Virus record (IMG/VR): IMGVR_UViG_3300030098_003279
Coordinates: 1-28,619 of that record
DNA: 28,619 nt
Reading direction: 5' to 3' (one strand)
Origin: a virus
Made by a program: the position numbers and the translations under genes. Under the pieces are notes generated by a model. The model did not search any database, was not told the DNA's origin, and saw only the letters and a program-made list of their open reading frames with translations. Shown in pieces: positions 8,549 through 23,665 of this stretch. Position 1 is the stretch's first letter; the number at the start of each line of letters is the position of its first letter.

Positions 8549-8682
8549 AAACTTTTTTTTCTAAACTATTGGGTTTAGACAAATTTGATTATAGAATAAG
8601 AAGATTAGAAAGAAAAGAATATTGGAGGAACAAATATAAAAATGGCATATCTGAACGCAAATCTACCTCCAATATATTGTAA
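8542..8682 (+). CDS. Small basic protein, 46 residues
   Basis: ATG 8542 overlaps the stop of the preceding gene (ATGTTAA), and the frame stays open to TAA 8680-8682, overlapping the next gene by 41 bases. The product, beginning MLKTFFSKLLGLDKFDYRIR, has an amphipathic N-terminal helix and a Lys/Arg-rich middle. It fills an otherwise empty 93-base gap, which supports it, but the last residues are forced by the overlap. No family recognised. Confidence 0.4.
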   Translation: MLKTFFSKLLGLDKFDYRIRRLERKEYWRNKYKNGISERKSTSNIL

Positions 8683-9283
8683 AGTAAGAAAGGAATATCT
8701 GTATGACCTTAAAGAGCATCATGGAGAAAGTGAAGATTGTGTTATCTTTGCTCTTACAAGTATTTCAGGGCGTGCTATCCTATTTAATATCATGTTACCC
8801 AACGGTGCGTGCTATTGGAGACTGCCTATCTCAGCGTTTTTCCAAAAATCATATGATAGAACCAAAGTGCCCGATATGCAGCCGCACGAGTTGGAATTGT
8901 GGAACTGTTTCAGTTACTGGCCTAGTGTTACTTGTTTTGATTGGTTGGATGGCGTAAAAGGAAAATTTTTAGGATTAGATAAAAAATTTTATCATGGTAA
9001 ATATTTATTTACCATTGACTGGGCACATCCTGACGTAAACATATTAGATGTAGAACATTCTGAAATACCGCAAGAACATAAGTGTGCACACATACTAGAG
9101 CTCGATAATGGTAATTACGCAGCTCAACCAAATAATCGTTTATTATGGCATATTAACAGTTATACGACAGATAATTCTTGGCCAGATTACAAGGTACAAA
9201 CCACTTATTGGGATGCAGAAGACACTAGATTAGTAACCGAGGATTCTGATAAAATGTTCTACCAAATGAAAAATAAGAAATAG
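8642..9283 (+). CDS. Conserved phage protein, unknown function
   Basis: GGAGG at 8624-8628 lies 13 bases before ATG 8642. The 213-residue product is soluble-looking and unusually rich in Trp, Tyr, His and Cys, starting AYLNANLPPIYCKVRKEYLY. Motifs include GRAILFNIMLPNGACYWRLP, ELELWNCFSYWPSVTCFDWL and a C-terminal WHINSYTTDNSWPDYKVQTTYW. I recall near-identical openings in marine phage proteins without known function. The part around 8780-8960 is richer in G+C than its surroundings. No catalytic signature is evident; it precedes the lysis-type genes. Confidence 0.8.
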   Translation: MAYLNANLPPIYCKVRKEYLYDLKEHHGESEDCVIFALTSISGRAILFNIMLPNGACYWRLPISAFFQKSYDRTKVPDMQPHELELWNCFSYWPSVTCFDWLDGVKGKFLGLDKKFYHGKYLFTIDWAHPDVNILDVEHSEIPQEHKCAHILELDNGNYAAQPNNRLLWHINSYTTDNSWPDYKVQTTYWDAEDTRLVTEDSDKMFYQMKNKK

Positions 9284-9293
9284 GGGGACGATT

Positions 9294-9371
9294 ATGTGGG
9301 AGAAAATTAAAAGTAAAATAAAAGCTATGTGGAGGTGGTATTTATCATGGCTTTTTGATTGGAGAAAATGA
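9294..9371 (+). CDS. 25-residue Trp-rich cationic amphipathic peptide
   Basis: A perfect purine-rich AGGGGGA (9283-9289) sits five bases before ATG 9294, and the TGA at 9369-9371 overlaps the next ATG (ATGA), so it is punctuated like a real gene. The peptide begins MWEKIKSKIKAMWRWYLSWL and ends FDWRK; it has five Trp and seven Lys/Arg in 25 residues, and the basic and aromatic residues alternate as in an amphipathic membrane-active helix. It lies just upstream of a membrane/coiled-coil protein and an endolysin, so a lysis or membrane-perturbing role is plausible. Too short for homology; real translation is not proved. Confidence 0.5.
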   Translation: MWEKIKSKIKAMWRWYLSWLFDWRK

Positions 9372-9793
9372 GTAAAAAACCATTAACAATATCAGAGTCG
9401 GCAGCTGTCCAAATGCCTATGAAGACAGTTGCCTCTCTGATTATAATTGTAGCACTTGGTACCATGGGCTATTTTCAGATGGTTGAACGTCTAAACATTG
9501 CAGACACTAAAATTAAAATAATGGAGCAGGATGTTGAACAGAACACAGAGTTTAGAATCAAGTGGCCGCGGGGTCAAATGGGGAGTCTTCCGGCAGATTC
9601 CGAGCAATACATGATGTTGGAGGATCTTTATAAGACTACCGATCGTATCAACAAACACATTGAGGATATGGCTTTAAATAAAGTGAACATCGAGTTTTTA
9701 ACTAAACAAATGGACAAGGTTTTATCTGATATAGAAAAATTAAAAGATGCAAACAGAGAGTACAAATACAATGGCAACGGGTCGAATAACTAG
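9368..9793 (+). CDS. Membrane-anchored coiled-coil protein (spanin-like candidate)
   Basis: ATG 9368 is chosen over TTG 9359 because of the ATGA coupling and a GGAG at 9361-9364. The 141-residue protein has a short polar N-terminus, one transmembrane helix (about 19-37, KTVASLIIIVALGTMGYF) and a long charged region (39-130) with two coiled-coil stretches flanking a WPRGQMGSLPADSEQ segment. This is the layout of an inner-membrane spanin, whose periplasmic coiled coil would join the outer membrane during lysis. The usual partner, an outer-membrane lipoprotein, is not obvious nearby. I recall similar proteins near endolysins in marine phages. Alternative: an unrelated membrane protein. Confidence 0.6.
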   Translation: MSKKPLTISESAAVQMPMKTVASLIIIVALGTMGYFQMVERLNIADTKIKIMEQDVEQNTEFRIKWPRGQMGSLPADSEQYMMLEDLYKTTDRINKHIEDMALNKVNIEFLTKQMDKVLSDIEKLKDANREYKYNGNGSNN

Positions 9794-9941
9794 AAAAATT
9801 TTAGATTACATAACACATGTAAACAAAGAAGCTAAACAGATGAATTATGTAAAAGAATTAAAAAAATCTGTAGAACATGGTAAGAATGGTACACAGAGAT
9901 ATGTAATTAAAGAAGGTGAAAACAAAGGTAAAGTAGTATGA
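9771..9941 (+). CDS. Small basic protein, 56 residues
   Basis: ATG 9771 begins inside the preceding gene (23-base overlap), with an AGAGAG about 10 bases upstream. The product, from MATGRITRKILDYITHVNKE, is helical and basic at the start, then a short hydrophilic tail with GKNGTQRYVIKEGENKGKV. It overlaps the following gene start in an ATGA junction. No recognisable family; the tight coupling to the membrane protein and the 70-residue protein suggests they are co-translated. Confidence 0.6.
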   Translation: MATGRITRKILDYITHVNKEAKQMNYVKELKKSVEHGKNGTQRYVIKEGENKGKVV

Positions 9942-10150
9942 TAGAAGCTGTTGTAGGATTACTTATGTTTATAAATGGAGAAATTAAAGAGGCACGACTG
10001 CAAGACTCAATGGCGATGTGTTTGCGCGGGAAACGCGAAGCGGAGAGGACTTTTTCTGAGTCTGTTACATACAAATGTTGGAAGGGTAAGGCAGAATTAG
10101 AGGATAATATTGATGGCTCAAGGTCAATCAAAAAACTCATCATTGAATAA
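9938..10150 (+). CDS. Small signal-peptide-like protein with two Cys
   Basis: The 70-residue product starts in an ATGA overlap with the previous stop. Its N-terminus, MIEAVVGLLMFINGEIKEAR, is weakly hydrophobic, and two Cys occur at positions 28 and 47 in a charged middle with MAMCLRGKREAERTF and VTYKCWKGKAE. I recall the opening (MIEA..GL.MF.NGEIKE) and Cys pair as recurrent in small marine cyanophage and pelagiphage proteins of unknown function. It may be periplasmic, with a disulfide, but a cleavage site is not clear. Confidence 0.75.
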   Translation: MIEAVVGLLMFINGEIKEARLQDSMAMCLRGKREAERTFSESVTYKCWKGKAELEDNIDGSRSIKKLIIE

Positions 10151-10259
10151 ACGCAATAATATGGCAAAATTATTGAGGGATAGAAGATTCAAACAACGTA
10201 TAATTAAATCAAAAAAAGTATATAATAGGAAGGATAAAAAACATGAATTTATCACGTAA
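10113..10259 (+). CDS. Small Lys/Arg-rich protein, 48 residues
   Basis: An AGAGG site about eight bases upstream supports ATG 10113, which overlaps the previous gene by 38 bases; the stop at 10257-10259 overlaps the endolysin start. The product contains LNKRNNMAKLLRDRRFKQRI followed by a KSKKVYNRKDKK run, a pattern I recall in small phage proteins. An internal ATG at 10161 is a possible alternative. It fills an apparent 92-base gap and is therefore likely real. Confidence 0.65.
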   Translation: MAQGQSKNSSLNKRNNMAKLLRDRRFKQRIIKSKKVYNRKDKKHEFIT

Positions 10260-10722
10260 TTTTACTCTTTCTGAGCTAACTAAATCAGATACTGCAATAC
10301 GTAAGGGTATAAACAATAATCCTAATGCGGAACAGATAGAAAAATTAAAAAATTTATGTGAAAAAATTTTACAGCCGATACGTGACCATTTTGGCAGGGT
10401 AAAGATAACCAGCGGTTTCCGTAGCGTAGAATTATGTATGGCTATTGGTAGTTCTGCAAATTCACAGCACGCCAAGGCCGAGGCCGCAGACTTCGAATGT
10501 GTTGGTGTGGATAATTGTGAGCTCGCTGATTGGATTAAAAGGGAGCTTCCATATGACCAGCTAATCTTAGAGTTTTACACACCAGGTGAACCTAATAGTG
10601 GATGGATACATTGTAGTTATACCGAAGCAACACCTAGAGCTAGTTTTTTACATGCATATAGAGAAGATGGTAAAACAAAATATAAACCCATAATAGGTAA
10701 AGCAGTAGATTTGTTTGTCTAA
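10243..10722 (+). CDS. Endolysin, M15-type peptidase
   Basis: AGGAAGGA just upstream supports ATG 10243. The 159-residue product is a single-domain M15_3-type D-Ala-D-Ala/L-Ala-D-Glu peptidase: VKITSGFRS (53-61), SANSQHAKAEAADFE (71-85) and SGWIHCSY (119-126) give the expected zinc ligands H76, D83 and H123. The enzyme would cut cross-linking peptides of the cell wall during lysis. It has no signal peptide or wall-binding domain, so it needs the holin-like protein for export. Its neighbours are the membrane-coiled-coil protein and small proteins at 9294-10259, making this the lysis module. The gene is directly joined to an oxygenase gene. Confidence 0.9.
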   Translation: MNLSRNFTLSELTKSDTAIRKGINNNPNAEQIEKLKNLCEKILQPIRDHFGRVKITSGFRSVELCMAIGSSANSQHAKAEAADFECVGVDNCELADWIKRELPYDQLILEFYTPGEPNSGWIHCSYTEATPRASFLHAYREDGKTKYKPIIGKAVDLFV

Positions 10723-22542: not shown

Positions 22543-22736
22543 CAGATTTACCTAAAATACCCGCTGAAGCTAAAGAAATTATTAAACATAAAAGAACAGG
22601 TAAAGTTTATGCAAACAAGGCAGAATTTGATGCTGATGTTGCTGATCCAAATACTGATACTACCATTGATGATTTCAGACAAGATTTAGAAATAAAAGTA
22701 ACTAGGGTAAATATTGAAGCGTTTACAAAAAAATAA
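22539..22736 (+). CDS. Small acidic/basic protein, 65 residues
   Basis: ATGA overlap with the previous gene and TAATG overlap with the glycosyltransferase. The product (MTDLPKIPAEAKEIIKHKRT, then GKVYANKAEFDADVADPNTD) has a small beta/alpha look with no catalytic residues. I recall it in marine phages next to the 46-residue gene. It closes the tail-region run before the two glycosyltransferases. Confidence 0.72.
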   Translation: MTDLPKIPAEAKEIIKHKRTGKVYANKAEFDADVADPNTDTTIDDFRQDLEIKVTRVNIEAFTKK

Positions 22737-23665
22737 TGGAACCTAGAGGCGCAACTGAAATACAACATGAGCTGTTAGAAAAATACGTAGCCAAAGACTT
22801 ATTAGATAAAGTACAAATATGTACTTCAATACCAGGTAAAGTTCCATGGCACCCAAAAAAAATAAATATACTATGGCAGAAAAATTCATATGATCAAGGT
22901 AACCTACAAGAATTTTTTTTAAATAAAGACAGATTTAATGAGTATGATTGGTATGTTTTTAACTCACATTGGAATTATGAAAAGTTTAGATACTTTTTTC
23001 AAATACCAGAAGATAAAAGCGTTGTAATAAAAAACGGTGCTGATAATTTTCCTAAAAGAAAAGTATATAAAAAAGGAGATCCTATTAGAATTATACACCA
23101 TTGCACACCTTGGAGAGGATTAAATGTGCTTTTACTAGCAATGCAGATGTTAAGAAACAAAGATATCACATTAGACGTGTATAGCTCATGTGAAGTTTAT
23201 GGTAGTGAGTTTGCAGAGGGTAATGAAAAAGCTTTTAAACCTTTATATGAACAAGCCTCATCTTTACCTAATGTTAATTATATAGGTCATAAATCACATG
23301 AATATATCAAAGAGCATATTTCAGATTATGACTTGTTTGTTTATCCATCAATATTTGAAGAAACATTTTGTGTGTCAGCTTTAGAGGCGTTAGCTGCGGG
23401 CCTACATGTAATTACGACCAATTTTGGTGCTTTACCTGAAATTTGTTCAGAGTGGCCTGTATATGTCAACTATACTAAAAATCATGAACTTTTAGCTGAG
23501 TCTTTTGCTCATGCAATAGATGCCTCAAAAGTTTATTTGCATGAGGATGATATGCAAAAATATTTAGATGATCAACAAAAGTTTTATAAAAAATTTTATA
23601 GTTGGGATAGAAAAGGCTCTGAGTGGACTAATTTTTTAACAGGGGCTATTCATGCCAAACGATAA
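22736..23665 (+). CDS. Glycosyltransferase, GT-B fold (GT4-like)
   Basis: TAATG start without a Shine-Dalgarno. The 309-residue protein has an acceptor-side half and a donor-binding half with IIHHCTPWRGLNVLLLAM (119-136), DLFVYPSIFEETFCVSALEA (199-218) and AAGLHVITTNFGALPEI (220-236). E209 and E217 give the EX7E pattern of GT4-type retaining enzymes, which transfer a sugar from a nucleotide-sugar. It is compact but near-complete. Paired with a second transferase, it may modify virion protein, host envelope glycans or DNA bases; nothing decides which. Confidence 0.85.
   Translation: MEPRGATEIQHELLEKYVAKDLLDKVQICTSIPGKVPWHPKKINILWQKNSYDQGNLQEFFLNKDRFNEYDWYVFNSHWNYEKFRYFFQIPEDKSVVIKNGADNFPKRKVYKKGDPIRIIHHCTPWRGLNVLLLAMQMLRNKDITLDVYSSCEVYGSEFAEGNEKAFKPLYEQASSLPNVNYIGHKSHEYIKEHISDYDLFVYPSIFEETFCVSALEALAAGLHVITTNFGALPEICSEWPVYVNYTKNHELLAESFAHAIDASKVYLHEDDMQKYLDDQQKFYKKFYSWDRKGSEWTNFLTGAIHAKR

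Follow-up and report, generated by a model that had tools for sequence, protein, structure and literature searches.

A frame of only 25 codons lies directly before a gene for a membrane-anchored coiled-coil protein in a viral sequence of 28,619 nucleotides (IMG/VR record IMGVR_UViG_3300030098_003279, all of which is hereafter called the window). It raises the question of whether so short a frame is a gene and, if so, what its product does. Judged by its sequence, the window comes from a pelagiphage-like (HTVC023P-type) virus, of whose genome it covers a part: its DNA showed 82% identity to Pelagibacter phage HTVC023P over 15% of a 25,000-base query, and the protein encoded upstream of the small frame is 89% identical to its HTVC023P homologue. 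These relatives suggest a SAR11-like host.

The peptide and its relatives

The frame runs from an ATG at 9294 to a TGA at 9369-9371 (plus strand, like all window features given here) and encodes the peptide MWEKIKSKIKAMWRWYLSWLFDWRK, with 5 Trp and 7 Lys/Arg among 25 residues, a net charge of +5 and the core KIKxxW.....WLFxW. Frame, coordinates and composition agree exactly with a preliminary description of the window, as does the ATGA at 9368-9371, in which the stop of the peptide overlaps the next start codon. On the basis of its relatives and of selection, we assigned the peptide to a group of Trp/Lys-rich peptides, termed family A. Ten bases separate the end of the upstream gene (8642-9283) from the peptide ATG, and the stop of that gene falls within AGGGGGA (9282-9288), a Shine-Dalgarno-like sequence 6 nt from the ATG. 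This had been described as a well-spaced ribosome-binding site, but 97 of 104 relatives have a stronger one (GGAG, GAGG or AGGA at the right spacing) and the window peptide is among the seven that do not. Likewise, the claimed amphipathicity applies to the family, whose 18-aa form has a helical moment of 0.59 (P = 0.007), and is only modest in the window peptide (0.47, not significant against shuffled sequences, P = 0.19). Because of this weak Shine-Dalgarno sequence and unexceptional helical moment, both features are softer supports than had been supposed. Neither a transmembrane (TM) segment (maximum 17-residue hydropathy 0.08) nor, on inspection of the sequence, a signal sequence or lipobox was found in the window peptide.

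Loci were retrieved through the coiled-coil, endolysin and phrog_3704 proteins (at least 80 each), and across them the slot between phrog_3704 and the coiled-coil gene holds differing tiny frames. Two DNA patterns then gave many further relatives. Among 43,922 small frames from 403 loci, a profile search picked out at least 162 distinct rows (E up to 10), of which 104 were kept (score >= 23); the set is partly motif-selected, and 104 is a lower bound. L290 and L332 were omitted as chance matches, and L321, possibly a true member, was also omitted. These relatives, at least 104, represent 92 distinct peptides with the core [IV]KxxWxxxxxWLFxW. An ATG precedes the core in all 104, and the length counted from the last such ATG has a minimum of 18 and a median of 25 residues (85 of the 104 have 34 or fewer; about 18-33 aa is typical). 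The peptides closest to that of the window are also of 25 aa, for example MIKKIKEKIKAMWRWYLSWLFDWKK (L280), and likewise overlap the coiled-coil gene. In 1.45 Mb of loci chosen via neighbouring proteins, the core pattern occurred 10 times, while the reversed control and the Markov replicas gave none.

Searches by tblastn of 50,697 phage records with the window peptide and a 30-aa relative obtained no match at E up to 10, and a 60-aa zinc-tail fusion obtained only chance matches in phage records. The window peptide matched no family in PHROGs or NCBIfam, and a 32-aa relative none in PHROGs. With another 25-aa relative as a query, a match was obtained in the cultured phage HTVC033P, where the 26-aa peptide (MIQKIKEKIKNLWAKFVDWLFSGYDK) lies between annotated gp48 and gp47 and is itself unannotated, in line with the earlier remark that annotation would ordinarily miss so short a gene. 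One pattern scan of cellular genome contigs gave five matches, none of them a family-like small gene. No earlier description of such a peptide in pelagiphages was found in the part of the literature covered. Phage lysis peptides as a kind are already known; the family, its extreme shortness, the mosaic slot and the internal starts appear to be new within the searched material.

Selection and start signals

The frame at 9294-9371 is almost certainly a real gene. Across 50 independent pairs of relatives, pN/pS was 0.29 for all codons (P = 1e-18) and 0.38 for those on which the search pattern set no constraint (P = 1e-10). The subfamily of the window (21 members, 10 pairs) gave 0.20, and 0.24 at free codons (P = 9e-7), and the members found without the pattern (10 members, only 4 pairs) gave 0.45 (P = 0.009). 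In the 14-codon core the value was 0.34 in the true frame versus 0.58 and 0.80 in the other two. The preliminary description had proposed looking in homologues for a broken frame or a neutral substitution pattern; the frame proved to be kept and under purifying selection.

Start signals point the same way. In some relatives the peptide is fused in frame behind a zinc-ribbon-like module or a module of a second peptide group, family B (see below), and all 24 of these fusions carry an internal Shine-Dalgarno sequence before the peptide ATG; the background, taken from Met codons inside long frames, is 638 of 9120 (7.0%). Because the fusions retain both this sequence and the ATG, it is the tiny peptide itself that is kept. 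Selection and start signals together ruled out a spurious frame. Fusions in which a zinc-ribbon-like module comes first, with their internal start, possibly give two products from one frame. Zinc-ribbon-like modules were observed in frame before or after the Trp-rich peptide in L300, L338, L364, L386, L400, L369 and others; the only Pfam matches of the fusions were of zinc-ribbon type, all below threshold.

Neighbouring genes in the window and in relatives

The gene directly upstream (8642-9283) belongs to phrog_3704 according to PHROGs and takes the same position in 64 of the 104 relatives. The window protein has no match in Pfam, so the database names 'ferredoxin' and 'PurM' given to this group look unreliable. 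Downstream, the 141-aa coiled-coil protein (9368-9793; phrog_20984, E = 1.8e-30) has an i-spanin-like shape, with one N-terminal TM segment (peak from residue 21) and long helices at residues 18-65 and 76-135 in an AlphaFold model, which is weak (mean pLDDT 67, pTM 0.24). It is followed by phrog_32989, by a 70-aa phrog_24646 protein with an N-terminal hydrophobic stretch and two Cys (9938-10150), and by an M15 peptidase endolysin (10243-10722; PF08291, E = 2.6e-18; phrog_894) about 870 nt from the peptide. In HTVC121P, too, the coiled-coil gene is followed by phrog_24646, and in L304 by a similar gene. The endolysin named in the preliminary description is present, and the spanin-like neighbour has one N-terminal TM segment and two long predicted helices, but no linked lipoprotein partner was identified for it in the window. 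At 1-232, about 9 kb from the peptide, lies the C-terminal end of a holin-like membrane protein of phrog_2524 (E = 1.4e-22), cut by the window edge; a near-identical contig has the full copy, with two TM segments. PHROGs gives no function for phrog_2524, and we infer a holin from its two TM segments and its place. The depositors of one related record gave such a protein the name DUF3154, a former name of a holin family, which Pfam did not confirm.

Inside the phrog_3704 gene, just upstream of the peptide, there is an open +1 frame (8703-8957, 84 aa) with a hydrophobic C-terminus. All 179 distinct close homologues examined keep it open over 80 codons or more; they are not independent because they share ancestry, and the start codon of the frame is at the same place in 171 of them. 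Synonymous recoding kept the frame open in 127 of 5130 cases (2.5%), and permuting the window gene's own codons reached its length in 1 of 2000. Synonymous change per site was 0.308 inside the frame versus 0.394 outside (87 pairs). In HTVC033P, HTVC008M, Mosig and the five cyanophage genes examined, another +1 frame exceeds the corresponding one in length. The frame may encode a small membrane protein that is overprinted on phrog_3704 in the HTVC023P-type group.

Among the 104 relatives, 89 have phrog_3704 upstream or the coiled-coil gene downstream, and 29 lie within 12 nt of the coiled-coil gene start. Within 1.5 kb, holin-like phrog_2524 was found upstream in 13, an amidase upstream in 11 and the M15 endolysin downstream in 6, counts that are limited by short contigs. 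The fullest arrangement is in L304, where genes for a 71-aa TM protein, an amidase, a phrog_2524-type protein, a coiled coil, a window-type peptide and the next three all touch; the peptide is followed there by a window-type membrane coiled-coil gene, the phrog_24646-like gene and a small secreted-looking Cys protein. The contig of L317 breaks off within the coiled-coil gene and up to that point shows the same order; these two loci join the amidase/holin-like cassette to the pairing of peptide and membrane coiled coil seen in the window. In HTVC033P the order is amidase, holin-like protein, coiled coil, peptide and secreted Cys protein, in which gp49 belongs to phrog_2524 and overlaps the gene for the amidase, gp50; the amidase of this cassette is an Amidase_2 (E = 9e-20) of phrog_822, classed under lysis by PHROGs. 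Encoding together with a holin-like protein and an endolysin, as expected of a disruptin-type peptide, was found in L304, L317, HTVC033P and others; in the window, only the endolysin is near the peptide. A role of the peptide in the lysis cassette is likely, and codon-level selection, conserved start signals and the endolysin and holin-like cassettes of the relatives bear out the preliminary reading of a real, selected product of the lysis region.

Candidate roles of the peptide and contents of the slot

The composition of the peptide, the amphipathic pattern of its family and its position suggest that it is probably membrane-active. For a more specific role, the nearest precedent is disruptin of phage phiKT, a phage-encoded cationic antimicrobial peptide that acts as a lysis protein and shows that such peptides can be outer-membrane agents (PMC12819732, in the text available). 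Family A resembles disruptin in being short, cationic, of predicted helix type and phage-encoded. It differs in its usual length of 18-33 aa, in its many mosaic forms and fusions, in that the window peptide matches none of the 50,697 phage records and in that its phages also carry an i-spanin-like protein. The reading we favour, at roughly even odds, is that the peptide is a cationic accessory to lysis that stays in the cytoplasm and, as disruptin does, acts on membranes at the end of infection. It would fold as a cationic, Trp-rich amphipathic helix and, because it has neither signal peptide nor TM segment, would remain in the cytoplasm, accumulating harmlessly until the holin opens the inner membrane. 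Once released, the peptide would destabilise the outer membrane, and the endolysin would meanwhile cleave the wall. The wall and inner-membrane functions are apparently assigned, which would leave the outer membrane as the layer without an agent in the window; that it is the target is a tentative proposal, and we lean somewhat against it. The modest amphipathicity of the window peptide, its weak Shine-Dalgarno sequence, the lipoproteins of some relatives, the i-spanin-like coiled coil, a commonest partner (phrog_3704) without known lysis role, fused zinc-ribbon-like modules with no obvious one, the distance of 9 kb between peptide and holin-like gene in the window, the empty slots of some relatives and the partly motif-selected set all speak against the disruptin-like reading.

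Other known systems share single features with the peptide. Like holins and pinholins, it is small, belongs to the lysis region and is predicted to be membrane-directed; unlike them it lacks even one TM segment, and a separate two-TM holin-like protein (phrog_2524) is present. As in two-component Rz/Rz1 spanins, a tiny gene overlaps that of a membrane coiled-coil protein, but an o-spanin of this type has the signal sequence and lipobox that the peptide lacks (Kongari et al., 2018; PMC6139136, in the sections available), which excluded it as an o-spanin. The same sections link a cationic amphipathic C-terminal helix of phiKMV-like endolysins to membrane penetration (PMC6139136); the helix of family A is similar in kind, but is encoded by a separate gene. 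The available text of PMC12819732 and PMC6139136 treats as open the question of how the outer membrane is breached by phages in which no spanin is recognised, and the available portions of PMC9599517, PMC9038755 and PMC12753301 name no holin, spanin or outer-membrane agent in pelagiphages. If the peptide is an outer-membrane agent, it would offer a concrete, testable candidate among phages that infect the most abundant bacteria of the ocean, and 92 variants of it, from 18 aa up, occur in nature.

Whether a spanin could do this work instead depends on a lipoprotein partner. The near-identical contig (60 kb of it), the complete genomes of HTVC203P and HTVC121P and a 12-kb stretch of HTVC033P yielded no canonical lipobox frame with a Shine-Dalgarno sequence, and the window has no convincing one. 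Small canonical lipoproteins gave a match in 31 other loci and, where found, were not beside the coiled-coil gene. In some relatives these were observed as proteins of 37-53 aa (..LTSC..FDGYDPSTAMVRW) 2-3 kb from the coiled-coil gene (L014:6125, L049:2447, L066:6884, L067:2721 and, on the minus strand, L382 at 4126); four of the lipoprotein-bearing relatives (L014, L049, L066, L067) have A-type peptides. Such a lipoprotein is a possible o-spanin, and because some relatives encode this candidate, the need for another outer-membrane agent is weakened. The argument from 'spanin-less phages' was dropped once these lipoproteins appeared.

The main rival to an outer-membrane role places the peptide in the inner leaflet of the inner membrane, where it would help or time the holin as an accessory, antiholin or small permeabiliser. 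Synthesis in the cytoplasm without a signal fits this reading, and in some relatives tiny single-TM peptides share the slot or come after the peptide, a similar family B helix is fused in frame to such a TM segment, and in about a dozen the peptide follows the holin-like gene and a coiled coil; the lack of a TM segment and the separate holin-like protein in the same cassettes make it unlikely. It is distinctly less probable that a spanin pair, formed by the coiled-coil i-spanin and a lipoprotein or small secreted Cys protein, opens the outer membrane while the peptide tunes the pair or its translation. The shape of the coiled-coil protein, the lipoproteins of some relatives and the secreted Cys proteins encoded after the peptide or the coiled-coil gene agree with such a pair, against which stand the missing lipobox partner in the window, the 60 kb of near-identical contig and the two complete isolates, and the distance of the lipoproteins from the coiled-coil gene.

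Functions outside lysis would make the peptide a membrane-binding helix for host takeover, for superinfection exclusion or for anchoring zinc-ribbon-like modules. The closest partner, phrog_3704, and the modules fused at either end in some relatives would suit this, but most members stand alone, fusions retain the internal start, and the cassette context favours lysis, so we regard such functions as very improbable. A leader peptide or attenuator, in which the Trp and Lys codons or the overlap would control how the next gene is translated and the product itself would be inert, hardly deserves credence: the ATGA overlap and the richness in Trp speak for it, but selection also acts on the non-Trp codons, and in other relatives the next gene is different or hundreds of bases away.

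A broader reading, which we consider doubtful, is that SAR11 phages have a third way to open the Gram-negative envelope, through a swappable slot beside the membrane coiled-coil gene. Its fillers would be unrelated tiny membrane peptides (family A helices, family B 'MIDKF' helices and tiny single-TM peptides), and family A would retain a separate start codon also in the in-frame fusions that place it after other modules. If this is true, family A would make up a class of lysis peptides, down to 18 aa in length, that is widespread and had so far gone unseen.

The slot was surveyed from both sides. Among the matches listed, the phrog_3704 scan gave 59 distinct slots (A in 10, B in 21, empty in 11) and the coiled-coil scan also 59 (A in 26, B in 2, empty in 4); the rule demands a Shine-Dalgarno 4-mer, which the window's peptide lacks, so it is not in the A counts. 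The slot is not universal, as 15 of the 118 surveyed have no small frame and the coiled-coil gene comes directly after phrog_3704, and the contents of 21 fall outside the classing rules.

Several other small frames were observed in or near the slot. Family B peptides have the form MIDKFIYKFF..LDK....IDN.F followed by a tail rich in Lys, are about 30-45 aa long and occur after phrog_3704 in L173, L181, L218, L219, L222, L245 and others, and in HTVC023P, HTVC203P, HTVC031P and Eistla. With one of them as a query, 20 of the 21 matching phage records (E up to 10) were Pelagibacter phages, the matches often lying in unannotated gaps. Two further tiny single-TM peptides, MNYYFTG..LAFCGGP.. and MDYRFTAILIILLCLLAF..PKPK, fill the slot in L048, L060, L195, L002, L014 and elsewhere, and some genomes have a protein of about 190 aa that begins with this same start. 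In L026 and L027, a lipoprotein-like frame of 25 aa (..LILSGC..) lies upstream of the coiled-coil gene, at a distance of about 217 nt, and another Trp/Lys-rich peptide, of 44 aa, directly before that gene; L075 has a related 44-aa peptide plus an A peptide. Finally, the 83-kb contig of L082 (G001) carries two diverged copies of the coiled-coil gene (22614-23037 and 80686-81108), one identical to the window, the other frame-broken and with a different peptide in its slot. Two strains were probably combined here in a permuted or chimeric assembly; the contig is also a sign of slot variability.
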